Shown one piece after another: positions 11,424 to 29,718 of a stretch of DNA of 64,000 nt (position 1 is its first letter; each line of letters opens with the position of its first letter). The position numbers and the translations under genes were made by a program. Under the pieces are notes generated by a model. The model did no database searches. It had not been told where the DNA came from and saw only the letters and a list, made by a program, of their open reading frames with translations. This DNA is from Nocardia vermiculata NBRC 100427 (GTDB lineage Bacteria > Actinomycetota > Actinomycetes > Mycobacteriales > Mycobacteriaceae): the NCBI RefSeq assembly GCF_001613265.1, contig NZ_BDCA01000015.1:62001-126000 (forward strand), written 5' to 3'.

Positions 11424-12345
11424 CAGCAGTACCAAGGTTTCGGCCAGCACGCGCCATGCCGAAGGCGAGCCGGGATGCCATGACGCCGGTCAGTAGCGCC
11501 CCATTGGCCACCGCGACCAGCGCGATCACACTGAACAATCGTTCCGGCACGCCACCGGCCCGGCGCACCACCTCGAGCAGCGGCCCACTCGATTCGGCCA
11601 GTCGCCGGTCGGTACCGCGGCACTGGTCACCACGCCTACCAGCACGTACACCAGCCCGGCCGTGAGCAACGCACCGAACAACGCGGCCGGGTACGAACGC
11701 CGCGGATCGCGCACCTCCTCCGCCAGGTTCGCCGAGGTCTCGAATCCGACGAAGGAGTAGAAGGCCGGTACCGCGCCGGCCGCCACCGCCGCAACGGGAC
11801 CGTGCTCCGCGGTTCCGATATCGGTGAGCCGGCCCGGATCGGCGTCGCCACGCAGCAGCAGCCAGGCGCCGAGCCCGATGACCAGCACCAGCCCGCCGAG
11901 CTCGACCACACTCGCCGCGACGTTCGCCCGCAACGATTCCTTGATTCCGCTGCCCGGGCCAGCGCCCCTACCGACACCACACCCGCGGCCAGCATGCAGA
12001 AGCCGACCAGCGAACCGGCCGCCGGTCCCAGCGCGCGAGTCGCGTAGTGCGCGGACCCACCCGCTCGTGGATATTTCGTCGTCAATTCCGCATACGACGC
12101 GGCAGTGAGCGTCGCCGAACCCGGCGCCACCGCCAACGGTAACCACACCGCACCGCCGGACGCCTCGGCCACGGAGCCGATCAGCACGTACACGCCTGCT
12201 CCGAGCACGTCACCGAGGATGAAGAAGTACAGCAGCGGCGTGCTCGCGGCGCGCTTCAGGGAACGAGGCAGAGCGGCCAGGTACCCGACGCTCGCAGGTC
12301 GAACCCGGATACACAGCCGATTACCCCGATCTCCGACCGGAGGTC
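11142..12345 (-). pseudogene. APC-family amino acid permease, multiply frameshifted and deleted
   Basis: Pieces of one permease lie in order but in different frames. First come FFILGDVLGAGVYVLIGSVA and AGGSAHYATRALGPAAGSLVGF. A shift leads into SGIKESLRANVAASVVELGG, FYSFVGFETSANLAEEVRDP and LLTAGLVYVLVGVV. A second shift leads to GGVPERLFSVIALVAVANGA and ASRLAFGMAR, and a third to LAETLVLLLLVVFAAVNCSV and the C-terminal helices. A segment expected between RLAFGMAR and LAETLV (about 40 residues in homologues) is missing, so this is genuine decay rather than one base-call error. The family is the basic amino acid/polyamine APC group. No convincing start codon remains. Confidence 0.8.
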
Positions 12346-12881: not shown

Positions 12882-13892
12882 TCAGGCGAACAGTGCCGTG
12901 AACCGCCAGTCCAGTACTCGCACCGGCGGCCCCGCCCGGCGGTGGGCGAAGACGATCGAGCGGAGGTCGAGGGCTCCGGCACCGGGCAGGGCAGTCGCAT
13001 CTTCGACGTACAGGTCGCTGGTCAAGGTATCTCCTTCGGAAACCGCGGCCGTGTGATCGCACGACCGCCAGCCGAGCACCGTGACCAGATTCGGCAGCGC
13101 ACGTGTCGCTTGGGCGAGCGCGATGCCGATCGTATGGCCCCCGTAGACCAGGCGGCCATCGGGGCCGAACCTTTCGTCATGGTGGGTGGCGGCGAGATTG
13201 AGTGTGAGCCGGGCCAGTTCCGGGGCACTGCTGACCAGATCACCACTCGAGGTGAACCGAATCCCGACCAGCGCAGCGTCGAAGTGGGTGCCGGGGACCT
13301 CGGAACGGTAGACGCCGAGGTCGATTCCATCCGGGACGGCCCACTTCGGTTCGTTCCGTTCGCCGATCGTGGAGAGATCGTCGGCCCGTACCACCTGGGC
13401 AGGATTCACGGCGGGATCGATCGGCAACATCGCGCACCGATGGAAGTCGAGGACGGTGCGCCCGTGTTGGTCCACAGTACTGATCCGCAGTGCGGCCAAT
13501 CCCGTTGCCGGACGTCCCGCTCTGATCGAGTTGGTTTTCAAGCCGACGACCTCGGTCGTGGTCCACAGGGTGTCGCCGATCAGCGGAAGGCGATGCAATC
13601 GCAGTCCGCGATAGAACAGGTTGGCCCGCACATGATGGGTGACCGACGTCGATTGACCGATCGCGACGTCGGTGACCAATCCCGGGTGTGCGAGTGGGCC
13701 ACCCGCGACCGCAGCCGACAACCGCGCATCCAATGGCAGCCGTAACCGATCACCGAGAATCGCCTGGTGTGCGGCAGCCAGACCGTCGGTCAGCGTGACG
13801 GCCGGGGCGGTGTCGAAGATCTGGCCGACCGTCAGCTGGTCGAAGTACGGGCCTCCCACATCGACGGAGCGAGTGTGGCGCGGTGTCGTCAT
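12882..13892 (-). CDS. MaoC-like (mesaconyl-CoA hydratase type) acyl-CoA hydratase
   Basis: A 336-residue protein long enough for a double hot-dog fold. The second half carries NLAATHHDERFG and LVYGGHTIGIALAQATRALP, the hydratase-2-like helix region. The first half has ILGDRLRLPLDARLS and VTHHVRANLFYRGL, as in mesaconyl-C4-CoA or itaconyl-CoA hydratases. Such enzymes hydrate unsaturated acyl-CoAs. Its start overlaps the stop of the CitE-like gene (ATGA, 13889-13892), so the two are translationally coupled. The expected pair of reactions is hydration to a 3-hydroxyacyl-CoA, then C-C cleavage by the lyase. The exact substrate is not determined by sequence. Confidence 0.82.
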   Translation of the reverse strand: MTTPRHTRSVDVGGPYFDQLTVGQIFDTAPAVTLTDGLAAAHQAILGDRLRLPLDARLSAAVAGGPLAHPGLVTDVAIGQSTSVTHHVRANLFYRGLRLHRLPLIGDTLWTTTEVVGLKTNSIRAGRPATGLAALRISTVDQHGRTVLDFHRCAMLPIDPAVNPAQVVRADDLSTIGERNEPKWAVPDGIDLGVYRSEVPGTHFDAALVGIRFTSSGDLVSSAPELARLTLNLAATHHDERFGPDGRLVYGGHTIGIALAQATRALPNLVTVLGWRSCDHTAAVSEGDTLTSDLYVEDATALPGAGALDLRSIVFAHRRAGPPVRVLDWRFTALFA

Positions 13893-14740
13893 CGGGCTCC
13901 GATCCTGGCCACGATGCGCCGAGCCGCAACGGCGACAGCTTCATCGAGCATCCGGCCGTCGAGCTGAACAGCTCCCGCGCCGCGTTCCTCCGCCGCTTCG
14001 AGGGCGGCCAGTACCCGGCGGGCGAAATCCGCGTCCTCGCCACTCGGGGTGAATATCTCGAGCGCGGGGTCGATATGCACCGGATGGACAACCCACTTGC
14101 CGTCGAATCCGAGATCGGCGGCCCACTGCGCCGCACGACGGAATGCTCCCATATCGACGAGATCTAGAAACGGACCGTCGATCGCCTGTACGCCGGCCTC
14201 CCGTGCCGCATGCAATACCCGGTCCTGGACGTAGAGCCACTGTTCCGGCCGGGTTACCTGGGAGCGGCCGAGGGCGGCACCGAGGTCGGCGTAGCCGATG
14301 ACCATCGCCTCGAGTCGCGGGCCCGCGGCGATCGCGTCGACATTGCGAACACCGCAAGGGGTTTCCACCAGCGCCTGCACGCGTACCGCACTGTCACCTC
14401 CGCGGTGCAGGATCCGGTCGATCTCCTCGAGCTCCGCAGCGTTTTCGACCTTCGGGATCACCAGAGAGGCCAGGAAGTCCGCCGCTCGACCGAGCACGGA
14501 CAGATCGGGGCCGAACCACGGGGTGTTCGGCCCGTTGATCCGGACGGAGACCGCCCGTCGAGCTCCGTACTCACGGGCCAGCTCGACTACCAGTCGGCGC
14601 GCTTCGTCTTTCCGGGCGGCGGTGACGGCGTCCTCGAGGTCCAGAACGACCTCGTCGGCATGTGAGCCGAGCGCTTTTCGCGCAGTGCGTTCGTCGGAGC
14701 CGGGCGCGACCAGTGTTGTTCGTCGGCGGGTAGCGATCAC
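13889..14740 (-). CDS. CitE/HpcH-type acyl-CoA lyase (malyl/citramalyl-CoA lyase-like)
   Basis: This 283-residue TIM-barrel lyase shows the family signatures LVAPGSDERTARKAL (N-terminal), DEVVLDLEDAV with the acidic metal region, SVRINGPNTPWFGPDL (conserved arginine), LVETPCGVRNVD (metal-binding glutamate) and GYADLGAALG. The family cleaves (citra)malyl-CoA or beta-hydroxyacyl-CoA into acetyl-CoA or propionyl-CoA plus a 2-oxoacid, using Mg2+. The GTG at 14740 follows AGAAGGA. It is coupled to the MaoC hydratase gene by a 4-base overlap. Together they form the hydratase-lyase half of itaconate/mesaconate-type routes; a class III CoA-transferase sits at the end of the co-regulated right operon. 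Confidence 0.87.
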   Translation of the reverse strand: MIATRRRTTLVAPGSDERTARKALGSHADEVVLDLEDAVTAARKDEARRLVVELAREYGARRAVSVRINGPNTPWFGPDLSVLGRAADFLASLVIPKVENAAELEEIDRILHRGGDSAVRVQALVETPCGVRNVDAIAAGPRLEAMVIGYADLGAALGRSQVTRPEQWLYVQDRVLHAAREAGVQAIDGPFLDLVDMGAFRRAAQWAADLGFDGKWVVHPVHIDPALEIFTPSGEDADFARRVLAALEAAEERGAGAVQLDGRMLDEAVAVAARRIVARIGAR

Positions 14741-14811
14741 ATCAGGTCCTTCTCTGTCGTATCGCGGGGGCGTTCGAGGCACCGGCGAGGAAGCGGAGGC
14801 ACAGTCGCGGT

Positions 14812-15548: not shown

Positions 15549-16439
15549 TCACCGCGCGTGTGGCGCGGGTGCCGCGATGGTCCGTACTTCGATCCGGGAG
15601 GCGCGTAGCCGCAGACATTCGGCGCTGTCCAGGGACGGAGAGGCGCACAGATAAAGCTGATTGCCGTGTTCTCCACCTGCTGCACAGGCGAGGACGAGCT
15701 GATCGAACCGCAGGCGCTCGATCTCACTGCCCTCCGCATCGAAACGCACAGCTGCACAGCCGAATACATCGGAGACCCAGACGCTCCCCCAACGATCCAT
15801 CCCGATGCCGTCGGGAGCGAAATCGAATGGCAGTTCCTTGCGCCCGGAAAGATCTCCCCCCGCACCGAGGTCGAAGCGACTGAGCCGGGCACCGAACGAC
15901 TCCGCGACGAACAGATATTTTCTCGTTTCGTCGACGACGATTCCGTTGCTGAACGCGAGTCCGGAAGCCACCTCTCGGTACTCACCATCGGGTTCGATCG
16001 AAAAGATCCGACTGGTAGCCGGCGGAACAATTTCTGCGCGGCAGACCTTTTCGATATCTTCCGCGGTGGTGAAGAATATGTGTGGATCGAATCCGGTTTC
16101 GCCGACATAGCACCGCCCGGTCGAGTCCACCGCCAGATCGTTGAGCGTCGTGGCGACCACATCGGAAAGGTCGGCATGCACAACGAATTCGTTCCCTTCG
16201 AGCCGGACGATCTTCCGCTCCTGCATCAGAACCACCAGCAGCCGCCCATCGGGCAGCCACCCGATTCCGCCCGGAGAGCTCGCCACCTCGAGGGTGCGAC
16301 GGTCCGAACCGTCGGCGCGAACCGATACGACTCGATTGAGGTGCATGTCGACAAACCAGAGGCGTCCGTCGCGATAGCGCGGGCATTCGGTGAACGAAAA
16401 CCCTTCGGCAACATATCCCGCGGGCGAATGTGCAGTCAT
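15549..16439 (-). CDS. SMP-30/gluconolactonase/LRE family hydrolase
   Basis: A 296-residue six-bladed beta-propeller of the SMP-30 family. FTECPRYRDGRLWFVDMH carries the first metal-ligand glutamate; LNDLAVDSTGRCYVGETGF the asparagine and aspartate region; and FAPDGIGMDRWGSVWVSDVF the catalytic aspartate blade. The family hydrolyses lactones or phosphoesters with a divalent metal. ATG 16439 is preceded by GGGAG at good spacing. It is followed by the secreted protein and preceded by the MFS transporter, so it probably opens a lactone ring of the imported compound or of an intermediate. Substrate unknown. Confidence 0.86.
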   Translation of the reverse strand: MTAHSPAGYVAEGFSFTECPRYRDGRLWFVDMHLNRVVSVRADGSDRRTLEVASSPGGIGWLPDGRLLVVLMQERKIVRLEGNEFVVHADLSDVVATTLNDLAVDSTGRCYVGETGFDPHIFFTTAEDIEKVCRAEIVPPATSRIFSIEPDGEYREVASGLAFSNGIVVDETRKYLFVAESFGARLSRFDLGAGGDLSGRKELPFDFAPDGIGMDRWGSVWVSDVFGCAAVRFDAEGSEIERLRFDQLVLACAAGGEHGNQLYLCASPSLDSAECLRLRASRIEVRTIAAPAPHAR

Positions 16440-16462: not shown

Positions 16463-17737
16463 TCAGGCTTCGGACGCAGCGCTGATCGCATTGACATCGG
16501 TGACACTCGGCGATTGCCGCTGCCGGGGAATCAGAGCGGCGAGTATCGCGCCGAGAATTCCGAACCCCGCGAGAACATAGAAACTTGTCTCGACGCTGCT
16601 GCCGGCGGCGACGAGAAACCCGATCAACGTCGGCCCGACCAGAGCGCCCACTCTCCCGGCACACGAAATCCACGACAGAGCAGCGACTCTGGAAGTGATC
16701 GGATAGTCGGTCGCCACGAACCCGGACATGAGTAGTTGAGCACCGAGCGTGCCGGCACCGGCGACGAATACCAGGAGGTAGACCAGCAGCAGCGGAAGGA
16801 CGATACTCAGCGCGAGAATACTCGCCGCGGCGGCAAGAAACACGGCAATGATCACCACACGAGGACCGGACACGTCGGCACGTTTGGCGAGCAGCGGCGG
16901 GATCGTCGCGGCCCCCAGATTCAGGGCCATCAAGAAGGTGAGGGCCGAACCGAGCTCGTAGCCATTGGCACGCATCAACTGCGGGAGCCAGGTATTCAGG
17001 CCGTAGGTCAGCACGAGACCGCTGGCACTCAGCAGCCCGAAGACGACGGTCCGTATCCATACTCCGTCGACGAACAGTGCTTTCGGGCCACGCGCGACGC
17101 CATGGGAGCCGTGTGGTACTTCCTGCGACGAGACGGCATCACTCGCGCGGCGCGACGGTGTGGAGGATTCGGGCAGAGCGAAGTACATCAGCGGCACCAG
17201 GGTGATCAATGGCAGTGCACCGACCGCAAAGAGGAATCGCCATCCCAGCGGCTCGAGTGCCAGCACGCCGACAAGTGCCGCGACCACACCACCGACGGGG
17301 TATCCCGCCCAGGCGATGGCACTGTATCGGTTGCCCTTTCCATCCGGCGCGAATTCCACCGCGAGCGCCGCCACGAGCGGGACGAACGCACCGATACCAA
17401 GCCCTGCCATCAACCTGGCGCCACCGAGCAGCTGAACATTCGGGGCCGCAGCGCACACTGCCATCCATCCCGAGAACCAGGCACACGAGGCGATGGTCAG
17501 CGTGCGCCTGCCGGTGAAATCGGCCAGCGCGCCGGAGATGATCGAGCCGATCAGCATGCCCACAACCGTGAGCGTGCTGATCAGGCCCGCGGTCGCGGCG
17601 CCCAGGTGCCATCCATCGGAAGAGATCAGTTGCGGCAGCACCGTCCCGTACGAGACGAGGTCGTACCCTTCGAAGGCCAGGCCGGCAAAACACATTGCCA
17701 GAACGGGGATTCGCGCTCTGGCGACGACTCTGGTCAC
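16463..17737 (-). CDS. MFS transporter, aromatic acid/H+ symporter (AAHS) type
   Basis: A 424-residue protein with about 12 membrane helices. The N-terminal AMCFAGLAFEGYDLVSYGTV matches the AAHS signature, with the intramembrane aspartate of DLVSYG, and GALADFTGRRTLTIAS is the loop 2-3 MFS motif. The AAHS family (PcaK/BenK-like) imports aromatic or short organic acids. I place the start at GTG 17737 because GAGGGAG lies 6 bases upstream and the first helix starts immediately; the open frame further upstream is not membrane-like. It is the first gene of the leftward operon and therefore the most likely entry point for the substrate of the regulon. Confidence 0.87.
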   Translation of the reverse strand: MTRVVARARIPVLAMCFAGLAFEGYDLVSYGTVLPQLISSDGWHLGAATAGLISTLTVVGMLIGSIISGALADFTGRRTLTIASCAWFSGWMAVCAAAPNVQLLGGARLMAGLGIGAFVPLVAALAVEFAPDGKGNRYSAIAWAGYPVGGVVAALVGVLALEPLGWRFLFAVGALPLITLVPLMYFALPESSTPSRRASDAVSSQEVPHGSHGVARGPKALFVDGVWIRTVVFGLLSASGLVLTYGLNTWLPQLMRANGYELGSALTFLMALNLGAATIPPLLAKRADVSGPRVVIIAVFLAAAASILALSIVLPLLLVYLLVFVAGAGTLGAQLLMSGFVATDYPITSRVAALSWISCAGRVGALVGPTLIGFLVAAGSSVETSFYVLAGFGILGAILAALIPRQRQSPSVTDVNAISAASEA

Positions 17738-17963
17738 TGTAACTCCCTCGCGGTTGATGAGGATTGCGTAGTCCGCGGTGAACGGAGCTCGGGCCGCAGG
17801 ATCGAGACGGTCGAGAACCGGGGCCGGCGCGGACGCCTCGGAGACTTCGGACCGCGCGTCGAACCGCGCGCTCCGGCATTCATTCGGCGACGTCCGCTCG
17901 CGGAGATTGTTCGTCTTTCCCGGGAACCGGCGCAGGGATCGAGAGGCAGGACGTCTGCAAATG

Positions 17964-17992
17964 AGACTAGATACGACAGTGCGATGAGTCAA
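17964..17992 (-). promoter_or_regulatory. Promoter of the leftward MFS/SMP-30/CitE operon
   Basis: On the minus strand TTGACT (17987-17992), a 17-base spacer and TAGTCT (17964-17969) form a good sigma-A-type promoter about 230 bases before the MFS start. The -35 box lies in the centre of the palindrome at 17974-18006. The rest of the 366-base gap up to 18103 shows no gene. Confidence 0.6.
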
Positions 17993-18006
17993 GCATCACA
18001 GTGTCG
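17974..18006. promoter_or_regulatory. 33-bp palindromic operator, left site of the TetR(18104) regulon
   Basis: Read on the minus strand, arms CGACACTGTGA and TCGCACTGTCG (9 of 11 paired) flank the core TGCTTGACTCA. The same 11-base core with similar arms recurs at 18859-18891 on the other side of the TetR gene. In both places the core contains the -35 hexamer TTGACT. This strongly suggests a common binding site for the TetR protein encoded between them. Binding itself is inferred. Confidence 0.68.
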
Positions 18007-18103
18007 ATCCAATGTGCTCTCCGTCTATCAAAGCCGCTCACCACCCCTGCCATGACGGCACTGCGCGGCCGCCGGCGGCAACTCCCAGGACTACGCTGAC
18101 GGG

Positions 18104-18739
18104 ATGGACAACACCGCATCGACTGAGTCGACGGAATTGCTGCCGGTACGCGAGCAGCAGCGATTGCTCACTCGTCAGCGCATCGTGGACGCCGCACGCA
18201 CGGTCTTCGAGGACCGCGGCTACGGCGAAGCGTCCATGGGCGACATCACCAAGGTCGCGAAGATCAACCGCTCCACCATCTACCTCCACTTCGCCAACAA
18301 GGCGGAAGTCTTCAACGAGGTGTACGAGGCAGTCCGCAAACAACAAAGCACGCGCTACTGGTCCCTGCTGAACTCCGCACTCGAGGAGGGCACCGAATCC
18401 TCGGTCCGACACTGGCTCGACAATGCGCTGACCTGGTGGGAGGACCACGCCAGGTTGCTGCCGGCCATCCACGAGGCCATGGCGAGCGACCTCGAGGTCG
18501 CCGCGCGATGGAAGGCGCAGATCGACCAACTGGCAGGCGAACTGGACGGATACCTACATACGGTCCCCCGGACCCAACGTGCGGAACGGCAACTGCGAAT
18601 CGAACTACTCATGATCCAACTCGATCAGTTGTGCTTCCGATGCATCGTGCAGAAGGTTTTCACCCTGGAGCGCGACGCACTGCTCGACGTGGTGACCGGT
18701 CTATGGGCAGACGCTCTGAACTTGAAGAAGGACCTGTGA
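18104..18739 (+). CDS. TetR family regulator of the flanking catabolic operons
   Basis: A 211-residue TetR protein. The N-terminal domain has RQRIVDAARTVFEDRGYGEA and the recognition helix region INRSTIYLHFANKAEVF (about residues 50-68). The C-terminal ligand domain is rich in tryptophan and leucine (HWLDNALTWWEDHARLLPAI). It lies between the leftward MFS operon and the rightward acyl-CoA synthetase operon and is bracketed by two matching 33-bp palindromes (17974-18006, 18859-18891). The simplest model is a repressor of both sets, and perhaps itself, released by a CoA ester or the free acid. A T-tract terminator follows it. Confidence 0.9.
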   Translation: MDNTASTESTELLPVREQQRLLTRQRIVDAARTVFEDRGYGEASMGDITKVAKINRSTIYLHFANKAEVFNEVYEAVRKQQSTRYWSLLNSALEEGTESSVRHWLDNALTWWEDHARLLPAIHEAMASDLEVAARWKAQIDQLAGELDGYLHTVPRTQRAERQLRIELLMIQLDQLCFRCIVQKVFTLERDALLDVVTGLWADALNLKKDL

Positions 18740-18767
18740 CCGATAAGTAGCAACCCCACCCCTGTCC

Positions 18768-18814
18768 GACAACGCCGAGCCGTCCACATCCGGCTCCGGC
18801 GTTGTCCTTTTTTT
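18768..18814 (+). terminator. Rho-independent terminator after the TetR gene
   Basis: Stem GACAACGCCGAGCC (18768-18781) pairs with GGCTCCGGCGTTGTC (18792-18806) with one bulged base, followed by seven T residues (18808-18814). This is the clearest intrinsic terminator in the window and isolates the TetR gene from the operon that starts at 19072. Confidence 0.88.
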
Positions 18815-18858
18815 CGAGCCCCACCGGCGACCCGGCGGTCTTCACGTCCAACTTCACG

Positions 18859-18891
18859 CAACACACTGTTGCTTGACTCACCAGAGTGTTG
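18859..18891. promoter_or_regulatory. 33-bp palindromic operator, right site of the TetR(18104) regulon
   Basis: Arms CAACACACTGT and CCAGAGTGTTG (9 of 11 paired) flank the core TGCTTGACTCA, identical to the core of the site at 17974-18006. The core again contains the -35 hexamer of the downstream promoter, so bound regulator would block RNA polymerase. Confidence 0.7.
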
Positions 18892-18901
18892 CGCGTAACG
18901 T
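18873..18901 (+). promoter_or_regulatory. Promoter of the rightward operon 19072-32146
   Basis: TTGACT (18873-18878), a 17-base spacer and TAACGT (18896-18901) form the likely promoter, giving a leader of roughly 165 bases before ATG 19072. The geometry relative to the palindrome is the same as for the leftward promoter. Apart from this and the terminator, the gap 18740-19071 holds no gene. Confidence 0.62.
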
Positions 18902-19071
18902 CGGTGTCAGATGGTGATCCCGGCGACAGCAAAGTCGCTCGGGGCCAGGTCATTCGATATCCGGAATGCGTGCGCCCACTCTGGTGCGGCGCGGCCGAGC
19001 CGAAGGCATTCCGTCCCCTGACCGGTGCGATGCCCACCGATGCGCACGAAGCAATAGGACAGGACCAATCA

Positions 19072-20661
19072 ATGAACGAGATCCGAATAGGTGCGGGCGA
19101 AACCTTTCCGGCGGCGTTGGCCGAACTGGCCGATACATTCCCCGACACCGAGGCCGTGGTAGCGCCGGAAGGACGTGTGACGTTTGCCGAATTCCACTCC
19201 CGTTGTGCGGAATTCGCGGGCATGCTGGCCCGAGCCGGGCTGCGGCCCGGACAGCGGGTCGGAGTGCTGCTGCCCAATGGCTTGCGCTGGCTGGTAGCGA
19301 TGCTGGGCGCCCAGCGCGCGGGACTGACCGTTGTCCCGATCAACACGTGGTACCGCTCCAACGAACTGGCACATCTGATCGCGACCGCGCAGCTGCGGCT
19401 GATCGTCACCGATGGCGTCGTTTTCGGCAAAGACATCCCCGCGGAGCTCGCGGCCGCAGGCCGGCCCGGAATGTACACCTCCGACACCGACGGCGGGGGC
19501 GAGGGATATCTGGGCGCTCTGCTGTGGCCGGCGGACGAGCAGTTGCCGACGTCCGCGCAGCGCGGCCCGTGCCCGCCGCCGACCTGCGCGTCTTCCGATC
19601 CGGCGATGATCCTCTACACCAGCGGCAGCACCGCCCTTCCCAAACCGGTCCCGCTCGAACACGGCAAACTGCTGCGTAACGGCCGCGCCATGGGCGACTG
19701 TATGCATGTGGTGCCCGGCGATCGACTGTGGTTCGCGATGCCGTTGTTCTTCGGCTACGGCGCGTGCAATGCGCTGCCGGTCGCGCTGGCCCACGGTCTC
19801 ACTCTCTGCGTTCAGGAGAAGGTCGACGGCGACGCGGCGTTGGCGTTCATCGAGGCCGAGCGCTGCACCGTCTTCTATGGCCTCGCCACCGCCGTGCGCG
19901 CCCTGCTGGCCGCGCCCAGTTTCGGACGGCGTGACATCTCGTCACTGCGGACGGGACCGGTGGGATTCAACGCGGAAGACAAACGGCTGGCCATCGAGGG
20001 TCTCGATATCGCCGAAGCGTGCAGCGCGTACGGAATGACCGAGTCCTACGGCTTCGTCACCATGACCGATGCACACGACGACCTGGCGGCCAAACTCGGA
20101 ACACAGGGGAAATGCCTTCCCACCCAGGCGATCCGGATAACCGATTCGACCGGTAGGCCGTGTCCGCCCGGCTCGGTAGGTGAGATCGAGATCCGCGGCT
20201 GTGTCATCCCCGGCTACCTGGGCGGCGCGGAGATCAACGCGGGCACCCGGACCGCGGACGACTGGTTCCGGACCGGCGATCTCGGGGTGATCGACGACGA
20301 GGGCCGGCTGGCGTTCGGCGGTCGGTGGAAAGAGATGCTCAAGATCAAAGGGATCAACGTAGCTCCGCTCGAGGTCGAGGAGATCGTTTCCGGCCACGCC
20401 TCGGTCGACCAGGCCTACGTGCTGGGGATCGAGACCGCCGACGGCGATCAGGAGATGGCGTGTGTCGTCGTGCCGGCTGTCGCAATCGGCGACGCGGAAG
20501 CCCTCAGCCGTACCCTCACCGAGTACATCCGCGCTCGTGCCGCCAGCTACAAGGTGCCGGCCCGATTCGTCGTCATGGAAGCGACGGCAGTGCCACAGAC
20601 CGCCACCGGCAAGGTAAGCAAGCTGAAGTTGCGTGAGCTGCTCAGCGAGGGCGTGCGATGA
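19072..20661 (+). CDS. Acyl-CoA synthetase (AMP-forming)
   Basis: This 529-residue protein is an ANL-superfamily ligase. The P-loop-like TSGSTALPKPVPLEHG (A3), SAYGMTESYGFVTM (A5), DWFRTGDLGVID (A7), RWKEMLKIKGINVAPLEVE (A8) and the C-terminal lysine in TATGKVSKLKLRELL (A10) are present. It activates a carboxylic acid to acyl-AMP, then acyl-CoA. It is the first gene of the TetR(18104)-controlled right operon, so it probably activates the acid that the AAHS-type transporter brings in. Its stop overlaps the cyclase start (ATGA). ALPKP replaces the usual xPKG in A3, a mild deviation worth noting. Confidence 0.9.
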   Translation: MNEIRIGAGETFPAALAELADTFPDTEAVVAPEGRVTFAEFHSRCAEFAGMLARAGLRPGQRVGVLLPNGLRWLVAMLGAQRAGLTVVPINTWYRSNELAHLIATAQLRLIVTDGVVFGKDIPAELAAAGRPGMYTSDTDGGGEGYLGALLWPADEQLPTSAQRGPCPPPTCASSDPAMILYTSGSTALPKPVPLEHGKLLRNGRAMGDCMHVVPGDRLWFAMPLFFGYGACNALPVALAHGLTLCVQEKVDGDAALAFIEAERCTVFYGLATAVRALLAAPSFGRRDISSLRTGPVGFNAEDKRLAIEGLDIAEACSAYGMTESYGFVTMTDAHDDLAAKLGTQGKCLPTQAIRITDSTGRPCPPGSVGEIEIRGCVIPGYLGGAEINAGTRTADDWFRTGDLGVIDDEGRLAFGGRWKEMLKIKGINVAPLEVEEIVSGHASVDQAYVLGIETADGDQEMACVVVPAVAIGDAEALSRTLTEYIRARAASYKVPARFVVMEATAVPQTATGKVSKLKLRELLSEGVR

Positions 20662-21626
20662 GCACCTCCGCCCGTATCCGGCGCACTCCGCGTTTCACCG
20701 ACCTGCCGACACTGCCTGATCGCGACGAACACCACGGCTGGGATGTGTGGGGCCATGACGACGAGCTCGGTACGCTCAACCTGATCGGCCCCGAGCAGCG
20801 CATCTGTGCGGCCCGCACCATCCGAACCGGCGCGATGATTTCGCTGAATCTCCCACTGAACGAACCGGATCCGGGGTTGTTCGACGACCGCGAGCCCTAT
20901 CAGCACATCGTCGAGGACACCGCCGCCGGGCACGACGACCGGCTCGACCACTTCTATCTGCAGGGCTCCTCCCAATGGGATGGTCTGCGCCATATCCGCG
21001 CCGGACGGCACGGCTACTGGGGCGGGCGCCAGGAACCCGATCTGGCCGGCACCGACATCCTCGGGGTCGATCGGTGGGCGGCACACGGCTTCGGCGGCCG
21101 TGGAGTTCTGCTCGACATCGCCAACTACTTGTCCGACAGGGGATCGCCGCTGTCTGCGGACGAACCGGTGGTGATTACCGCTGCCCTGCTCGACGAGGTC
21201 GCCGCCGCGCAGGACACCACCTTCGAGTCGGGCGACATCCTGGTGGTTCGCACCGGCTGGACGGAGTGGTACCGGACGCGTCCACTCGAGGACCGGGCCC
21301 GTATGCGCGGAACGATCGGCGCCGGATTCGCCTGCCCGGGACTGGACTCGTCGAAGGAGATGGCGGGCTATCTGTGGGACAACGAGTTCGCTGCCGTCGC
21401 TGTCGACAACGTCGGCGCCGAAGTCTTCCCGGTCGATCGCGAGAAGGGATTCCTGCATCGCCGCCTGATTGCACTACAAGGCATGCCGTTGGGCGAATTG
21501 TGGTGTCTCGCAGAGCTTGCCGAGGCGTGCGCCGACCGTGGCGCCTACGAATTCCTGCTGGTGTCGGGAGTTTTGCCACTGCCGGGCGGAGTCGGAACGC
21601 CCGCGAACGCCCACGCCATCCTCTGA
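20658..21626 (+). CDS. Cyclase family protein (kynurenine-formamidase-like fold), divergent metal motif
   Basis: A 322-residue member of the cyclase/formamidase superfamily (PF04199). GWDVWGHDDELGTLNLI, RGVLLDIA and GDILVVRTGWTEWYR are family landmarks. The usual metal motif HxGTHxDxxxH is reduced to SSQWDGLRH (Q106, W107, D108, H112), as in a large divergent clade. Members hydrolyse amides, lactones or cyclic substrates with Mn or Zn. It overlaps the synthetase gene by 4 bases. Similar proteins occur in two other clusters of this window (35736, 49642), pointing to a common chemical step, perhaps opening a ring or lactone. Confidence 0.82.
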   Translation: MSTSARIRRTPRFTDLPTLPDRDEHHGWDVWGHDDELGTLNLIGPEQRICAARTIRTGAMISLNLPLNEPDPGLFDDREPYQHIVEDTAAGHDDRLDHFYLQGSSQWDGLRHIRAGRHGYWGGRQEPDLAGTDILGVDRWAAHGFGGRGVLLDIANYLSDRGSPLSADEPVVITAALLDEVAAAQDTTFESGDILVVRTGWTEWYRTRPLEDRARMRGTIGAGFACPGLDSSKEMAGYLWDNEFAAVAVDNVGAEVFPVDREKGFLHRRLIALQGMPLGELWCLAELAEACADRGAYEFLLVSGVLPLPGGVGTPANAHAIL

Positions 21627-21651: not shown

Positions 21652-22820
21652 GTGCCGCTGGGCCCGCTCCGTCAGGTTGCCGTAGTCGGGATCGGGATGA
21701 CCGAAGTCTCCCGACGCTCGCCACGCACCGCCCTGGATTTCGCCGCCGAAGCGCTGCGCCTCGCACTCGACGATGCCGGTCTGCGCCCGGGCGACATCGA
21801 CGGCCTGTTCACCAATGTCGGCTATCCGCTGGCTGTCGACTACGACCGGATGGCCGAAGCGTTCGGGCTCCGGATCCGCGCCGCGCTGCAGACCTGGACC
21901 CACGGACGGTTCGTCGGACCGGCCCTACAGGCGGCGGTGCAATCGGTCGCACTGGGCATGTCCGATATTGCGGCATGCGTTGCGGGAGTGTCATTTTCCG
22001 GGCTCGGCACGGTCGGTGGTGCGGAGGATATCGAAGGGATGCGTCAGGGCGGTGGCTCGCACGGCGAACTACCGCATTACGGCATGACCGCGCCCGGCGC
22101 CGGCGCGGCGATGGCCTTCCGACGGTATTGCGCCCGTTACGGCTACGACCCCGAGCTGATCGCCGCGGTGCCCACCGCGTTTCGCACGCGCAATCGAATC
22201 CGAACGCACAGGTGACCACTCCCCTGAGCGCCGAGGACTACCGGCGACAGCCCTACATCGTCGAACCGTTGCGTCGCCCCGATTTCGCGTTGCTCAGCGA
22301 CGGCGGTGGCTGCCTGCTCGTCACGACCGTCGAACGCGCCCGCGACCTGCGCCGCCCTGCCGTCGTGGTGGCCCGGATGCAGGGCCTGCACACCGGTCGC
22401 GACGAATTCATCTTCGCCCCACCGGGCCTCGGAGTCTTCTCCCAGAACGACACCAGGCGAATCGAGCACAATCCGGTCTACGCGATGGCCGGACTGACCG
22501 GGGCCGACGATGTCGATTCACTGCAACTGTACGACGCGTTCTCACCCAACCTGGTGTTCGTCCTCGAGCGCTTCGGCTTCACCGCCGAAGGCGAAGCGCT
22601 CGACTGGCTCCAGAACGGTCGGATCGGGCTCGGTGGCGAACTACCGACCAACACCGCCGGTGGACTGTTGTCGGAAGCACATATCTGCGGCTGGGGCCAC
22701 ATGATCGAGGCCACTCGCCAGCTCCGCGGGCAGGCCGGTGACCGCCAAGTCGACGGCTGCGAAATCGTTCAGTGGGCGACACCCTTCGGCGATTCGCTCA
22801 TCTTCACGAAGGATCGGTGA
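21652..22820 (+). pseudogene. Thiolase-like protein interrupted by a single-base frameshift
   Basis: The first frame from GTG 21652 (AAAGGA upstream) encodes a thiolase-fold start (QVAVVGIGMTEVSRRSPRTA, ALDDAGLRPGDIDGLFTNVG) and continues to AAVPTAFR. It then runs into a stop at 22215. The next frame (-1) continues with HAQSNPNAQVTTPLSAEDYR and then SDGGGCLLVTT, LQLYDAFSPNLVFVLERFGF, LPTNTAGGLLSEAHICGWGH, to a stop at 22820. Joined, about 389 residues match the full length of SCP2-like thiolases. The break is at 22183-22187, consistent with loss of one C. No slippery heptamer is visible, so this is a mutation or a base-call error. It pairs with the DUF35 gene next door. Confidence 0.75.
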
Positions 22821-22826
22821 CAGGCA

Positions 22827-23231
22827 GTGACGAACGAACGCCCCCTTCCCGTCAGGTATCCGGAGGACGTCGAACATCTCGACGGCGCGGTGAACGCCCT
22901 GCTGCGCGTACCCTGCTGCCGCACCTGCGATCAACGGTTCTGGCCGCCCGCGCCCGTATGCCCCGCCGACTTCGGCACCGACATCGGCTGGGATACCGAT
23001 CCGGGTACCGGCCGGGTCAACAGCTGGGTTCGCTTCCACAAGCAGTACTTCACCGCAGATCGGGTCCCCTACGTCGTCGTTCAGGTCCGTCTCGACAGTG
23101 GACCCAACCTCACGACCACCTGGACGGGCGCAGCGGATCCGGTCATCGGCGAGCTCGTCGCAGTGTCGTTCCGCACTGTCGGCGACGACACCGTACTGCC
23201 GGAATTCGGACCGGTGCCCACCCATGACTGA
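22827..23231 (+). CDS. DUF35 OB-fold protein with rubredoxin-like zinc ribbon
   Basis: A 134-residue protein with an N-terminal zinc ribbon (LLRVPCCRTCDQRFWPPAPV, then CP) and a C-terminal OB fold (GRVNSWVRFHKQYF, VPYVVVQVRLDSG). DUF35 proteins pair with thiolase-fold partners. In steroid catabolism the Ltp2-ChsH2 type pair acts as a retro-aldolase on acyl-CoA. The gene begins with GTG 22827, 7 bases after the thiolase stop, so the two form a classical pair. If the thiolase is really broken, this protein would lack its partner; if the frameshift is an artefact, the pair probably performs the C-C cleavage step. Confidence 0.86.
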   Translation: MTNERPLPVRYPEDVEHLDGAVNALLRVPCCRTCDQRFWPPAPVCPADFGTDIGWDTDPGTGRVNSWVRFHKQYFTADRVPYVVVQVRLDSGPNLTTTWTGAADPVIGELVAVSFRTVGDDTVLPEFGPVPTHD

Positions 23232-23280
23232 TACGCCGATCGAACGCCTCGGACATAGCAATATTCGGAGGAACCACACC

Positions 23281-26200
23281 ATGACCGATTCCGGCCGTCA
23301 CACTCTCGACGACCGCTATACCGTCGCCGACGGCGTCGTCCACCTCACCGGTGTGCAGGCGCTGGCGCGGCTGCCGATCGACGTGCGTCGGGCAGATCGG
23401 CGAGCAAGCCGTGCCACCGCGGCGTTCATCTCCGGATACGAAGGGTCGCCGCTCGGCGGCTACGACCTCGAGCTGGGCCGACAGGGCCCGCTGCTCGACG
23501 AGCACGACATCCTCTTCCGGCCCGGCGTCAATGAGGAACTCGCGGCGACCGCGGTGCAGGGCGCGCAACTGGCCGCGATCTCGTCCGACAAACGCGTCGA
23601 CGGCGTCACCGGCTACTGGTACGGCAAGTCACCCGGCCTCGATCGTGCCTCGGACGCCTTGCGGCACAACAATCTCATGGGCACCCACCGGCTGGGCGGA
23701 TCGCTGGCACTCGTGGGAGACGATCCGGCGGCGAAATCGTCGACCGTGCCGGGCAGTTCGGAGATGCTACTGGCCGATCTCGGGATGCCCACCCTGTATC
23801 CCGCCGATCCTCAGGAAGTTCTCGACCTCGGGCTCCATGCTGTCGCACTGTCGCGAGCATGCGGGCTGTGGGTGGGTTTCAAGATCGCCACCAACGTCGC
23901 CGACGGCACCGCGACCGCGCGCGTCCACCCGGACCGGATCAGGCCGATCGATCCCGACTTCCGCATCGATGGGCGGTCGTTTGCCCACGAGATGACCGCG
24001 CGCATGCTGCAACCCGACCTGGGCCGGCTCGAACGCAGCCGCGACGGCGCGCGCCTGGAACTGGCCCGCCGGTACGCGGCGGTCAACAGCCTGAACACGA
24101 TCGTCACCGAGAGCGGCGCCGATCGGATCGGAATCGTTGCCGCCGGAAAGACATTTCACGATCTGCGGCAAGCGCTGCGCACCTTGGGTCTCGACGAGGC
24201 GGAACTGGCCCGCCGCGGGGTGCGGCTGTTGCACCTGGCGATGATCCACCCGCTCGAACCCGAGATCATCGGCCGATTCGCGCGCGGCCTGCGGGAGATC
24301 ATCGTGGTCGAGGAGAAGCGTTCGTTTCTCGAAAGCGCCCTCAAGGACCTGCTCTACGGCCGCTCGGACGCACCGGCGATCAGCGGCAAGCGCACTCCGG
24401 ACGGCACCGCGCTCGTTCCGGCCGACGGAGAACTCGACCCCGACCTCATCGCTACCGCGCTGGCGTCGCGACTACGCGCGCACGGCGATTTCCCCAGCGT
24501 CGATGCGTGGTCACCGCAGCACCACAGCACGCGACCGCGCACATTGCTGCCGCTGGCGACGCGCACGCCGTACTTCTGCTCGGGCTGCCCGCACAACACG
24601 TCCACCAAAACCCCCGAAGGATCGCTGGTAGGGGCCGGAATCGGCTGCCACAGTCTGGTTTTGATGATGGAACCGGAGCAGACGGGGCAGATCACCGGCC
24701 TCACCCAGATGGGCGGCGAAGGGGCGCAGTGGGTCGGTATGGCCCCGTTCCTCACCCGCGATCATCTGCTGCAAAACCTCGGCGACGGCACGTTCCACCA
24801 CTCCGGTAGCCTCGCCGTGCGAGCCGCCGTAGCCGGCGGTGTCGACATCACCTACAAGCTGCTCTACAACTCCGCGGTCGCGATGACCGGCGGGCAGCAA
24901 CCGGCCGGTGTGCTGAGCATCGCACAGATTGTCACAGCGATGCGTGCCGAAGGCGTCCGCCGCATCATCGTCACCACCGACGAGCCTCGCCGCCTGCGCA
25001 AGTTGCGTCGTCTCGCCGGCGTGCAGGTCTGGCACCGCGACCGGGTCGAAGAGGCGCAAACCGAATTGTCGGGCACCGCGGGGGTGACGATGCTGATCCA
25101 CGATCAGGAATGCGCCACCGAGCTTCGCCGTAAACGCAAACGCGGTCTCGCGCCCGACCCCATCGAACGGATCATGATCAACGAGCGGGTGTGTGAGGGC
25201 TGTGGCGACTGTGGTGTGAAGTCGAACTGCCTGTCGGTCCAGCCCGTGGCGACCGAGTTCGGGCGCAAGACGCTGATCGATCAATCGTCGTGCAACAAGG
25301 ACTACTCCTGCCTGGCCGGCGACTGCCCGTCGTTCCTGACAGTCGTCCCCGGCAAGGCCGGCGCGGATAAAATGCTTGCCGAGTCCATCGGCGCCGATCT
25401 GCCGCAGCCCTCGGCACGGACCTCCGCCACAGCGTTCACCGTCCGAGTGACCGGGGTCGGCGGATCCGGGGTCGTCACCCTGTCCCAGATACTCGGTCGC
25501 GCGGCCACGATTGCAGGGCTGAGCGCGTGTTCCCTGGATCAGACCGGACTCGCGCAGAAGGGCGGCGCGGTCATCTCCGACATCAAACTCGGCGAAGCCG
25601 AGGCCAACAAGGCCGCCGCGGGCGAATGCGATCTGTATCTGGGCGCCGACATCCTCGTCGCCGCCGACCCCCGGCACCTGACTGTCGCCGCCCCGGGCCG
25701 TACCGTCGCGGTCATCTCGACGTCGCAGGTACCGACGGGTGCTATGGTTACCGATCCGACGGTCGCGTTCCCCGCCGAGGACACGTTGCTCGAACGCATC
25801 GCGGAAGCCACCGATCCGACAGCATTGACGGCCCTGGACGCCCGGGCCGTCTCGCAAACCCTGTTCGGCGAGGACCAGTACGCGAACCTCGTACTCACTG
25901 GTGTCGCTTATCAACTGGGCGCCATGCCCATTCCCGCCGACGCGATCGAACAGGCGATCACGCTGAACGCGACGAAGGTGAACAACAATATTCAGGCCTT
26001 CCGGCGCGGCCGCCAGTTCGTCGCGGACCGGCACGGCTTCGATGCCACCGTCGCCGCCCTGAGCCGGCAGCCACATGTACCTGCGCGGATCTCGGACAGT
26101 GCTGCGGCACTGATCGAATCCGTCGCCACGCCGGCTGGTTCCGAGCTCGATCGGCTGCTGCGCATCCGGGTGCCCGATCTCATCGCCTACCAGAACGAGG

Positions 26201-26799
26201 CGTATGCCGACCGGTACGTCCGATACGTCCGGTGGGTTCACCGTGCCGAGGCTGCGGCCGTGCCCGGGCAGAGCGCGCTGACCGAAGCGGTCGCCCGATA
26301 TCTCTACAAACTCATGGCCTACAAGGACGAGTACGAAGTCGCGCGGCTGAGTCTGGATCCCGATCAGGAACGTGCGGTGCGAGCGCGATTCGGCGCGGAC
26401 GCCACCATCTCCTACCGCTTGCACCCGCCGGTGCTGCGCGCTATGGGTATGAGCCGCAAACTCGAACTCGGGCCCTGGTTCCGGCCGGTATTCCGCACTT
26501 TGGTCGCCGGCCGACGCCTGCGTGGAACTCGCCTGGATCCTTTCGGATACGCGGCACTGCGACGGCTCGAGCGTGAACTGATCGACGAGTACCTGGCTAC
26601 CATCACCGAAGCCGTCGGCACGCTGCGGCCCGAAACCCATGCGCTGAGCGTCGAAATCGCGGAGTTGCCGGACCTGATCCGCGGCTACGAAGAGGTCAAG
26701 CTCCGCACCGTGGACGACTATCGGATCCGGCGCACCGATCTGCTGGAGAAACTGCGACGGGCCGGGACGGCGCTCACGAGCGAGGTGGGTGTGCGATGA
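23281..26799 (+). CDS. Indolepyruvate:ferredoxin oxidoreductase-type fused 2-oxoacid oxidoreductase
   Basis: This 1172-residue single chain contains an N-terminal pyrimidine/TPP-type domain (FISGYEGSPLGGYDLELG) and a TPP-binding domain (YFCSGCPHNTSTKTPEGSLV, GAGIGCH). A 4Fe-4S cluster motif follows, C638-x2-C641-x2-C644-x5-C650, and a C-terminal gamma-like domain (VTGVGGSGVVTLSQILGRAA, GLAQKGGAVISDIKLG). It oxidatively decarboxylates a 2-oxoacid to the acyl-CoA with ferredoxin as acceptor. Fused aerobic versions occur in actinobacteria and proteobacteria. GGAGGAA precedes ATG 23281. The next gene, overlapping by 4 bases, is a 2-hydroxyacid dehydrogenase, so hydroxyacid to oxoacid to acyl-CoA is the natural sequence. 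Confidence 0.92.
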   Translation: MTDSGRHTLDDRYTVADGVVHLTGVQALARLPIDVRRADRRASRATAAFISGYEGSPLGGYDLELGRQGPLLDEHDILFRPGVNEELAATAVQGAQLAAISSDKRVDGVTGYWYGKSPGLDRASDALRHNNLMGTHRLGGSLALVGDDPAAKSSTVPGSSEMLLADLGMPTLYPADPQEVLDLGLHAVALSRACGLWVGFKIATNVADGTATARVHPDRIRPIDPDFRIDGRSFAHEMTARMLQPDLGRLERSRDGARLELARRYAAVNSLNTIVTESGADRIGIVAAGKTFHDLRQALRTLGLDEAELARRGVRLLHLAMIHPLEPEIIGRFARGLREIIVVEEKRSFLESALKDLLYGRSDAPAISGKRTPDGTALVPADGELDPDLIATALASRLRAHGDFPSVDAWSPQHHSTRPRTLLPLATRTPYFCSGCPHNTSTKTPEGSLVGAGIGCHSLVLMMEPEQTGQITGLTQMGGEGAQWVGMAPFLTRDHLLQNLGDGTFHHSGSLAVRAAVAGGVDITYKLLYNSAVAMTGGQQPAGVLSIAQIVTAMRAEGVRRIIVTTDEPRRLRKLRRLAGVQVWHRDRVEEAQTELSGTAGVTMLIHDQECATELRRKRKRGLAPDPIERIMINERVCEGCGDCGVKSNCLSVQPVATEFGRKTLIDQSSCNKDYSCLAGDCPSFLTVVPGKAGADKMLAESIGADLPQPSARTSATAFTVRVTGVGGSGVVTLSQILGRAATIAGLSACSLDQTGLAQKGGAVISDIKLGEAEANKAAAGECDLYLGADILVAADPRHLTVAAPGRTVAVISTSQVPTGAMVTDPTVAFPAEDTLLERIAEATDPTALTALDARAVSQTLFGEDQYANLVLTGVAYQLGAMPIPADAIEQAITLNATKVNNNIQAFRRGRQFVADRHGFDATVAALSRQPHVPARISDSAAALIESVATPAGSELDRLLRIRVPDLIAYQNEAYADRYVRYVRWVHRAEAAAVPGQSALTEAVARYLYKLMAYKDEYEVARLSLDPDQERAVRARFGADATISYRLHPPVLRAMGMSRKLELGPWFRPVFRTLVAGRRLRGTRLDPFGYAALRRLERELIDEYLATITEAVGTLRPETHALSVEIAELPDLIRGYEEVKLRTVDDYRIRRTDLLEKLRRAGTALTSEVGVR

Positions 26800-28184
26800 G
26801 TGACCCTGTGATCGCGGAGCTGCGCCGTGTACTGCCTTCCGAGCGGACCCTCGAAGACCCCGACATTCTCGACAGTTACTCGCACGACGAGGCCGAGTGG
26901 GCCCCGCACAGCCGCCCGCTGGCGGTCGTGCGGCCGGGTAACGCTCAGGAGATTCAGCAGATCGTCCGCGCGTGCCTGACTCATCGCACACCGATCGTGC
27001 CGCGCGGTGCGGGGACCGGGCTGTCCGGCGGCGCCAATGCCGTCGAGGGCGCCGTCGTCCTGTCGACCGAACGCATGACGGCGATCAAGGAGATCGATAA
27101 CACCGAACAACTCGCCGTGGTCGAGCCCGGTGTGGTCAACGACCACCTCAGAAGCGCATGTGCCGAGCACGGCCTGTGGTACCCGCCGGATCCGGCGAGC
27201 GCCCCGTGGTCCACGATCGGCGGGAACGTCGCGACCAACGCCGGCGGACTGTGCTGCGTGAAGTACGGCGTCACCCGCGATTACGTGCTCGGTATGCAGG
27301 TTGTCACCGGCACCGGCGAACTGGTGCGGCTGGGCCGGCGCACCGCCAAGGGGGTTGCGGGGTACGACCTGGCCGGCCTCATGGTCGGTTCCGAGGGAAC
27401 GCTCGGCATCATCACCGAAGTCACGGTGCGGCTACGCCCGACGCGTCCGCCGGAGCGCACGATCGCCGGCTACTTCGACTCGCTCGCCGATGCCGGACAT
27501 GCGGTCGCGGCGATCGGGGCGGCGGGCCTCATTCCGTCGGCGCTGGAGCTCATCGACCGTCACACCCTGCTCGCAGTGGACGCATGGAAGAAGATGGGGC
27601 TGTCCGACGACGCGAATGTGGTCCTGCTGGCCCGCACCGACGTGCCGGGCGCGGAAGGCGAGCAGGAAGCCGCGACGATTTCGGCCTGTTTCACCGAATC
27701 GGGCGCGAGCTGGGCGGCGATCTCTTCCGATTCCCAGGAGGCCGAGGCACTGTTCGCTGCCCGCCGGCTCGCGTACCCGGCGCTCGAACGGCTCGGCCCG
27801 GTCCTCACCGAAGACGTGTGTGTCCCCCGCGCGTGCGTCCCCGAGATGCTGACCCGGATCGAGCGCATCGGGCAGCAGCACGACATCACCATCGCCAATG
27901 TCGCCCACGCCGGTGACGGAAATCTGCATCCGCTGTTGATCGTCCCCGCAGACGACGCTCCGGCACGTCGACGTGCCCAGCGTGCCTTCGAGGAAATCCT
28001 CGATGCGGCAATGGATCTGGGCGGCACGGTCACCGGAGAACACGGGGTGGGCTTGCTGAAACGTCACGGCCTGACACGCGAATTGACCGAGCCGGTCCTG
28101 GCCATGCACGCCGCGGTGAAAAACGCCCTCGACCCGCACGGCATCCTCAATCCCGGAAAGGTGATCGCACCGTGCGCGCCGTAG
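26796..28184 (+). CDS. FAD-linked 2-hydroxyacid dehydrogenase (GlcD/D-lactate dehydrogenase type)
   Basis: This 462-residue protein has the FAD-binding type 4 (VAO/PCMH) motif PRGAGTGLSGGA at 69-80, STIGGNVATNAGG, and GYDLAGLMVGSEGTLGIITE. The C-terminal catalytic/metal region ANVAHAGDGNLHPLL and GTVTGEHGVGLLKR is that of the GlcD/LDHD family. It oxidises D-2-hydroxyacids to 2-oxoacids. It overlaps the indolepyruvate-type oxidoreductase gene by 4 bases, which suggests that the 2-oxoacid it makes is consumed there. There is no separate Fe-S subunit gene (GlcF-like) beside it, so its electron acceptor is not evident. Confidence 0.9.
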   Translation: MSDPVIAELRRVLPSERTLEDPDILDSYSHDEAEWAPHSRPLAVVRPGNAQEIQQIVRACLTHRTPIVPRGAGTGLSGGANAVEGAVVLSTERMTAIKEIDNTEQLAVVEPGVVNDHLRSACAEHGLWYPPDPASAPWSTIGGNVATNAGGLCCVKYGVTRDYVLGMQVVTGTGELVRLGRRTAKGVAGYDLAGLMVGSEGTLGIITEVTVRLRPTRPPERTIAGYFDSLADAGHAVAAIGAAGLIPSALELIDRHTLLAVDAWKKMGLSDDANVVLLARTDVPGAEGEQEAATISACFTESGASWAAISSDSQEAEALFAARRLAYPALERLGPVLTEDVCVPRACVPEMLTRIERIGQQHDITIANVAHAGDGNLHPLLIVPADDAPARRRAQRAFEEILDAAMDLGGTVTGEHGVGLLKRHGLTRELTEPVLAMHAAVKNALDPHGILNPGKVIAPCAP

Positions 28185-28251: not shown

Positions 28252-29718
28252 GTGACCTCCACAGACAACATCGATCTCGACCGCACTCGCTTCTACATCG
28301 ATGGACGATGGGTGGCACCACATCGCGCCGACACTCATCTGGCGTTGGAAGCTGCCACCGGAACACCGTTGGGCACAGCAGCTCTGGGCTCCGAAGCAGA
28401 TATCGACACCGCCGTCCGCGCTGCCCACCGCGCCTTGCACGGCCCGTGGGGCAGCACCACGGCCGCCGAACGGGCAGCCGTCATGCGCCGGTTCGCCGAG
28501 GCGCTCGCGGCCCGCGCGGAGCACACCTCGACTCTGGTCAGCCGGGAAAACGGCATGCCGATCGCACTGTCCAACATCTTCAACGGCGCGGCGCCCGCGG
28601 GCCTGCTGCGGATGTATGCTGACACCATCGAGACCATGGCCCTGGAGCAGGCCCGCCCCAGCCAAGCCGGATCGACGATCGTGCGCCGGGAACCCGTCGG
28701 TGTCGTCGGCGCGATCACTCCGTGGAACTATCCGCAGGTCCTCGCGATGATGAAAATCGCGCCCGCCCTCGCCGCGGGCTGCACCGTCGTGCTGAAGCCC
28801 GCCCCCGAAACCGCTTTGGACGGTTACGTGCTCGGCGAAGCTGCTGCCGAAGCGGGCCTCCCACCCGGTGTGTTGAACATCGTGGTCGCGGGACGGGAAG
28901 CCGGCTCGGCGCTGGTATCACATCCGCTGGTCGACAAGATCGCATTCACCGGATCCACCGCGGCGGGACGAATCATCGGCGCCGAATGCGGACGGCTGAT
29001 CCGGCGCTGCACGCTGGAACTCGGCGGAAAGTCCGCGGCCATCGTGCTCGACGATGCCGACCTGACCACCTTCGTCGCCGGACTGGGCGATGCGTCGTTC
29101 CAGAACAACGGACAGACCTGCACCGCGCAGACGCGAGTGCTGGCACCGCGGTCGCGCTACAACGAGGTCGTCGACGCCGTGGCCCAGTACGCACGCGAAA
29201 TGGTTGTGGGCAACCCGCTCGACCCGACGGTCACCTGTGGGCCGATGGCCAGCGAAGCCCAGTTGGACCGGGTGCTCGGCTACATCGACCTGGGGAAGAA
29301 GACGAACGCGCGGCTGGTAACCGGCGGCGTCCGCCCGAGCGCACTGCCCGCGGGCTGGTTCGTGGAGCCGACCGTCTTCGCCGATGTCGACAACTCCGAA
29401 CGCATCGCCCAGGAAGAGATCTTCGGGCCTGTCATCACCGTCACCCCTTACGACGATGACGACGATGCCGTCCGCTTGGCCGACGACAGCGAATACGGCC
29501 TCGGCGGATCGGTCTGGACCACCGACGAGCAGCGCGGCATCGCCGTAGCCCGCAGGATCCGCACCGGGACGATCGGCGTGAACTACTACCTGCAGGATCT
29601 CGGCGCTCCCTTCGGCGGCATGAAGAGCAGCGGCCTCGGACGCGAACTCGGACCGGAAGCCTTGGACAGCTACCTCGAATACAAGTCCATCTATGCGAGC
29701 GCCGCACAGATCGGATAG
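28252..29718 (+). CDS. NAD(P)-dependent aldehyde dehydrogenase
   Basis: A standard-length 488-residue ALDH. The catalytic cysteine is C290 in NNGQTCTAQTR, the general base E256 is in LELGGKSAA, and the cofactor region ITPWNYP and FTGSTAAGR is intact. EIFGPVITV and the C-terminal GGMKSSGLGRELG are typical. It oxidises an aldehyde to an acid. GTG 28252 follows AGGAGA. In the operon it sits between the hydroxyacid dehydrogenase and an ACAD and may process an aldehyde released by retro-aldol or lyase cleavage; that placement is inference. Confidence 0.92.
   Translation: MTSTDNIDLDRTRFYIDGRWVAPHRADTHLALEAATGTPLGTAALGSEADIDTAVRAAHRALHGPWGSTTAAERAAVMRRFAEALAARAEHTSTLVSRENGMPIALSNIFNGAAPAGLLRMYADTIETMALEQARPSQAGSTIVRREPVGVVGAITPWNYPQVLAMMKIAPALAAGCTVVLKPAPETALDGYVLGEAAAEAGLPPGVLNIVVAGREAGSALVSHPLVDKIAFTGSTAAGRIIGAECGRLIRRCTLELGGKSAAIVLDDADLTTFVAGLGDASFQNNGQTCTAQTRVLAPRSRYNEVVDAVAQYAREMVVGNPLDPTVTCGPMASEAQLDRVLGYIDLGKKTNARLVTGGVRPSALPAGWFVEPTVFADVDNSERIAQEEIFGPVITVTPYDDDDDAVRLADDSEYGLGGSVWTTDEQRGIAVARRIRTGTIGVNYYLQDLGAPFGGMKSSGLGRELGPEALDSYLEYKSIYASAAQIG

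Follow-up and report, generated by a model that had tools for sequence, protein, structure and literature searches.

TetR-family proteins are mostly repressors. The TetR proteins described as dimers of dimers (QacR, CgmR, Ms6564 and CprB) have sites of 22–32 bp, against 15–17 bp for single dimers, in the account given in PMC4150764. The published description of FadRSa from Sulfolobus acidocaldarius presents a TetR repressor with four genomic sites and a catabolic cluster spanning 30 kb and 23 ORFs (PMC6449355), and the edc cluster is reported to hold an enzyme of the indolepyruvate ferredoxin oxidoreductase (IOR) family (PMC12507874). In a literature search at the level of titles and abstract openings, we recognised no account of the TetR or of the gene cluster considered here, which lie in a 64,000-nucleotide stretch of Nocardia vermiculata DNA (the window).

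Two matching elements beside tetR in a catabolic gene cluster

The initial annotation of the window had placed matching 33-bp palindromes at both divergent promoters flanking a tetR gene and had read them as operators of one TetR regulon. Rechecking the sequence confirmed the coordinates of both elements (Table 1), the identical 11-base core TGCTTGACTCA common to them (the left copy on the minus strand), the imperfect inverted arms with 9 of 11 positions paired in each site, and a −35 hexamer separated by a 17-base spacer from the −10 box. The promoters fit the word divergent only in part: the left one, with its site 98 bases before the tetR start, does diverge from tetR, but the right one reads in the tetR direction from beyond a terminator hairpin. 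The RNA fold of this hairpin reached −27.7 kcal/mol (z −5.77), with 0 of 200 shuffles equally stable; it is absent from the list produced by a pattern scan, which had a loop limit of 8, the stem here being interrupted. The proposed tally of fifteen genes over 20 kb was corrected to 13 operon genes plus tetR (four on the left and nine on the right, at about 12.9–32.1 kb).

Table 1. Coordinates of the predicted operators, tetR, its terminator and the flanking operon genes in the window.
Feature	Position	Strand	Details
Left predicted operator	17974..18006	−	boxes 17994-18006 and 17974-17986; −35 TTGACT 17987-17992; −10 TAGTCT 17964-17969
Right predicted operator	18859..18891	+	boxes 18859-18871 and 18879-18891; −35 TTGACT 18873-18878; −10 TAACGT 18896-18901
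tetR, 211 aa	18104..18739	+	TetR_N domain residues 27-73, Pfam PF00440, E 2.4e-14
tetR terminator	18768..18813	+	hairpin then seven T; separates tetR from right promoter
RipB-like hydratase-related protein	12882..13892	−	NF038241 E 7e-9, far below cut-off; 79-80% in relatives
HpcH/HpaI-CitE-like lyase	13889..14749	−	PF03328; 71-72% in four relatives matched; start by homology
SMP-30/gluconolactonase-like protein	15549..16439	−	PF08450; 74% to C5 copy; start by homology
MFS transporter, aromatic-acid/H+ symporter-like	16463..17737	−	PF07690, TIGR00895; start GTG 17737 by eye from upstream GGAG
Acyl-CoA synthetase	19072..20661	+	PF00501; 85% to C5 copy; start ATG by eye after AGGACAGGA
Cyclase-family hydrolase	20658..21626	+	PF04199
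Thiolase-family protein, broken frame	21652..22820	+	PF22691; two frames match one 390-aa relative
ChsH2-like OB-fold protein	22827..23231	+	PF01796, PF12172
IOR family protein	23098..26799	+	NF009589 above cut-off; 78% to Rhodococcus DK180 copy
GlcD-like FAD-linked oxidase	26796..28184	+	TIGR00387, below cut-off
Aldehyde dehydrogenase	28252..29718	+	
Acyl-CoA dehydrogenase	29748..30935	+	
CoA-transferase family III	30956..32146	+	PF02515; last right-operon gene, next gene on opposite strand

The regulator carries an N-terminal TetR helix-turn-helix domain that scored 53.3 bits against PF00440 (cut-off 24). No close solved relative was found in the PDB, the best sequence match (E 1.8e-9) covering the helix-turn-helix part only, and the predicted structure, although all-helical, was poor (mean pLDDT 52.4, pTM 0.42, six sequences). 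Among the operon genes, the true start of the IOR family gene is probably near 23.3 kb. The thiolase frame is called broken because two frames match a single relative; the disruption, near 22185–22203, reflects either mutation or an assembly error, and relatives carry one uninterrupted frame of 390 aa. Membership of the IOR family raised estrogen degradation as a candidate pathway, which we regard as unsupported: neither an estrone 4-hydroxylase nor a 4-hydroxyestrone (ring-cleavage) dioxygenase is among the annotated cluster genes. Elsewhere in the window, positions 10254–11423 encode a 389-aa protein with an XRE-type helix-turn-helix followed by TetR_N and TetR_C_24, that is, two DNA-binding domains in one chain, and a 206-aa open frame at 11526–12146, possibly a fragment, matches only the middle of amino-acid permeases.

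Arms pairing at 9 or more of 11 positions occur at 32 positions in the window, the two sites included, so that palindromy is weak evidence alone and was rejected as stand-alone evidence. Stronger evidence comes from the match between the left and right sites, which are identical at 24 of 33 positions; in simulated random pairs of promoter-size sequences (130 + 150 bases), a best 33-mer match of at least 24 arose in 1 of 150. The 11-base core matched three times in the 6.69-Mb genome, at the two window sites and once next to a TetR paralogue (86% identical) on another contig (C5), and since a reversed control of the core pattern likewise gave three matches, the core alone is not rare. A strict sigma-70 scan returned no promoter in 17600–19200, and the −10 boxes of both sites are weak.

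Recurrence and anatomy of the element

A search for the 33-bp motif near homologous operons, one of the checks that the initial annotation had put forward, was carried out with the two window sites as the only query at seven loci that have a close TetR relative (70–87% identical; L004–L008, L018 and L021). At every one of the seven, the two best 33-mer matches fell in promoter regions of the cluster, at 23–29 of 33 positions, with the next best match at 19–22. Five of the loci belong to Nocardia, one being the C5 paralogue and the others coming from four species-level genomes, and there the matches flank tetR on either side, just as they do in the window; the genus of the window genome includes genomes matching the Nocardia carnea, N. 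flavorosea and N. testacea loci. In Rhodococcus DK180 they preceded an MFS–MmgE/PrpD pair and the synthetase operon. In Streptomyces S465 one preceded an MFS–MmgE pair and the other a hydantoinase gene, about 4 kb short of the synthetase and cyclase genes; no 33-bp site was found upstream of tetR in either strain. Strain DK17 (L023) was not counted, the first DK180 site being unchanged there and the second falling outside the fetched stretch. At the loci of distant TetR homologues (34–46% identical), including that of M. branderi (46%), no such element was detected. Three TetR homologues of 34–35% identity within the genus have a different dyad, of roughly 29 bp, beside the regulator gene (L015 and L016 at about 2109, L017 at about 1413).

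The element is conserved above its flanks. Identity to the window sites was 0.64–0.88 within the sites, against 0.18–0.37 over the 60 bases upstream (18 comparisons per window site) and 0.21–0.48 over a stretch at 46–93 downstream. The arrangement TTGAC, 17 bases, TAnnnT was present in 19 of 19 aligned sites, and its −10 part belonged to no query. These 19 sites contain one identical pair (C5_c and test_c), leaving 18 distinct, and leave out a diverged site (L029:16202 / L046:4893) and a three-mismatch hit in one genus genome (G091).

The description of the element as a 33-bp palindrome stands as far as the dyad symmetry of its arms is concerned, but the element is probably made of two 13-bp boxes, whose half-sites carry eight C/G positions (1, 4, 10, 13, 21, 24, 30 and 33), all of them invariant in the 19 sites. 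In order, the half-sites read CRACA, an inverted CAWCA-like word, a CRMCR-like word and an inverted CRACA; positions 1–13 and 21–33 each form a 13-bp inverted repeat. The centres of the two repeats are 20 bp apart, and the 7 bp between the repeats hold the −35 hexamer. At 33 bp and with four half-sites, the element is long enough to accommodate two dimers, as expected of a predicted operator for a dimer of dimers. Boxes were also seen outside the aligned set. The DK180 tetR start (L021:18006) has a single perfect box, strict boxes being expected by chance at a rate of about 0.65 in 64 kb, and the diverged copy of the element (L029:16202–16234 / L046:4893–4925), located between MmgE/PrpD and a luciferase-like gene, includes the perfect box CAACAggtTGTTG and has no TAnnnT at the usual place.

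Because the same half-sites also form a 33-bp dyad, symmetry cannot choose between boxes and dyad: over the 19 sites, two boxes gave 145 matches and one dyad 143, with two sites favouring each and 15 ties. The 33-bp dyad, or the inner TGWTG-N7-CAMCA pair, might instead serve a single dimer or interleaved dimers within an otherwise identical regulon, an alternative that we consider rather unlikely even though it is the better fit to the left window site (9 to 5) and to one Nocardia site (8 to 6). Its inner pair, 12 bp apart, comes near the 31–38 Å recognition-helix distances reported for TetR proteins (PMC4150764), and a TetR of M. abscessus is described as using a 27-bp dyad (PMC5895659). Judged by those same distances, however, the outer half-sites, which are the best conserved words and yet stand 28 bp apart, would be too far from each other for one dimer. 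The first sites of Streptomyces S465 and Rhodococcus DK180 each consist of two perfect but different boxes that break the large dyad (10 versus 6), and the diverged copy lacks the outer left arm while its right box is perfect. On the strength of these sequence patterns, two side-by-side 13-bp boxes around the −35 hexamer, accommodating two TetR dimers, are moderately favoured.

Extent of the predicted regulon in the genome and the genus

The consensus used in the following scans was built from sites that it then recovers, making the counts partly circular in both the window genome and the genus. With up to three mismatches, the window genome gave five matches and the reversed control none. These were the two window sites, two sites beside the C5 TetR paralogue and C5:163308–163340, which precedes MFS, MmgE/PrpD, luciferase-like, zinc dehydrogenase and thiolase genes; relatives of these genes (55–81%) belong to the pDK3 TetR cluster of Rhodococcus. 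Contig C5 thus holds, in addition to the second TetR and a paralogous cluster, three more predicted operators. Over residues 53–63 the recognition helices of the two TetRs differ by I59L alone, from which cross-binding of the paralogues is expected, and the sequences suggest that the regulon probably extends to this second locus, the two loci forming one cross-talking unit with five operators. Most C5 cluster proteins are 71–91% identical to those of the window; the IOR-type gene product reaches only 52%, and its gene is set apart and points the other way from the third operon.

Across the genus, matches with up to three mismatches occurred in 6 of 148 genomes and matches with at most one in five, the reversed control giving none in each listed genome. 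The sixth genome, G091, has a single three-mismatch match and only a 34% TetR homologue. The regulator itself is rare: among 394 genomes from the class and 396 from the phylum, at limits of 1e-40 and 1e-30, the window genome was the only one to carry it, and it was found at 86–100% identity in five of the 150 genus genomes searched. A site of the third type, that seen at C5:163308–163340, was found in three of these five (the window genome, G134 and G039), with an MFS gene adjoining it in each. This MFS gene was not found in the 19-kb stretches from the other two close-TetR genomes, and the G039 stretch contained MmgE fragments only and no luciferase-like gene.

Together, the recurrence of the element at cluster promoters in all seven loci whose TetR is closely related, its conservation above its flanks and, within the genus, its restriction at no more than one mismatch to the five close-TetR genomes support the proposal that one TetR regulon, presumably through direct binding, spans both operons. 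Were the element instead bound by a regulator encoded elsewhere, with the adjacent TetR a bystander, the 24 kb separating the third C5 operator from its tetR would be readily understood; we judge this highly unlikely, as tetR accompanies the element in Nocardia, Rhodococcus and Streptomyces despite different gene orders, and within the genus the five genomes with a match of at most one mismatch are the same five that have the close TetR. Whole-cluster inheritance could be the source of part of this co-occurrence. That the TetR is an activator, or that the sites are a shared promoter architecture without TetR regulation, would agree with the inclusion of the −35 and −10 in the conserved stretch but is highly improbable, given that conservation is not confined to the hexamers: it reaches some 13 bases further upstream than the −35 and takes in the spacer, and a protein there would overlap polymerase.

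Proposed repression and comparison with known systems

From the presence, position and conservation of the elements, their co-occurrence with close TetR relatives and the promoter spacing, we infer that TetR binds and acts as a local repressor of the catabolic gene cluster. Its operator would comprise two CRACA-N3-TGTYG boxes of 13 bp, spaced and placed about the −35 hexamer as above. With one dimer bound per box, the −35 and the spacer would be occluded and RNA polymerase blocked; the conserved DNA takes in both, so that bound protein should exclude the enzyme. Both operons would be switched on once TetR was released by an inducer, probably the substrate itself or a CoA intermediate early in the pathway. 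The C5 paralogue, whose recognition helix and operators are almost the same, would probably join the same five-operator regulon. This combination of a local TetR repressor, paired-box operators holding one dimer per box, release by an inducer and cross-talk with C5 is the best explanation, and one that we hold to be probable. More tentatively, two paralogous TetRs may share one operator code and couple two catabolic clusters through a non-interleaved twin-box design whose fixed 20-bp spacing extends from Nocardia to Rhodococcus and Streptomyces.

The local TetR repressor is a well-known principle, and the regulon predicted here is a well-supported but ordinary example of its kind. For specialists in actinobacterial catabolism, it is useful in supplying an operator code that can be tested, for a catabolic cluster so far uncharacterised and carried by Nocardia, Streptomyces and Rhodococcus plasmids, in widening the predicted regulon by a third operon, and in offering natural variants of a −35-bracketing operator as material for studying how one promoter might accommodate two TetR dimers.

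Among the systems compared, the pDK3 cluster of Rhodococcus sp. DK180 and DK17 has a TetR 70% identical to that of the window, two copies of the element and the same synthetase–cyclase–thiolase–OB–IOR–oxidase–aldehyde dehydrogenase order, but its tetR, MFS and MmgE genes all run in one direction; it carries no function annotation, and the TetR is the sole annotated regulator in that part of the plasmid. Where two dimers share an operator, those of QacR use overlapping palindromes. The same arrangement is reported for DarR (PMC10636190), whereas the half-sites described here fit separate boxes 20 bp apart; QacR, CgmR, Ms6564, CprB and DarR nonetheless resemble the predicted system as repressors with long operators holding two dimers. 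The edc estrogen cluster of Caenibius is similar in that its two catabolic operons are described as enclosing the regulator, EdcR, within the same cluster (PMC8700777). FadRSa, as presented in PMC6449355, likewise places one TetR repressor over a catabolic cluster and can bind as a dimer of dimers, but it is archaeal, governs a fatty-acid cluster and has a second dimer that overlaps the semi-palindrome rather than occupying a separate box.
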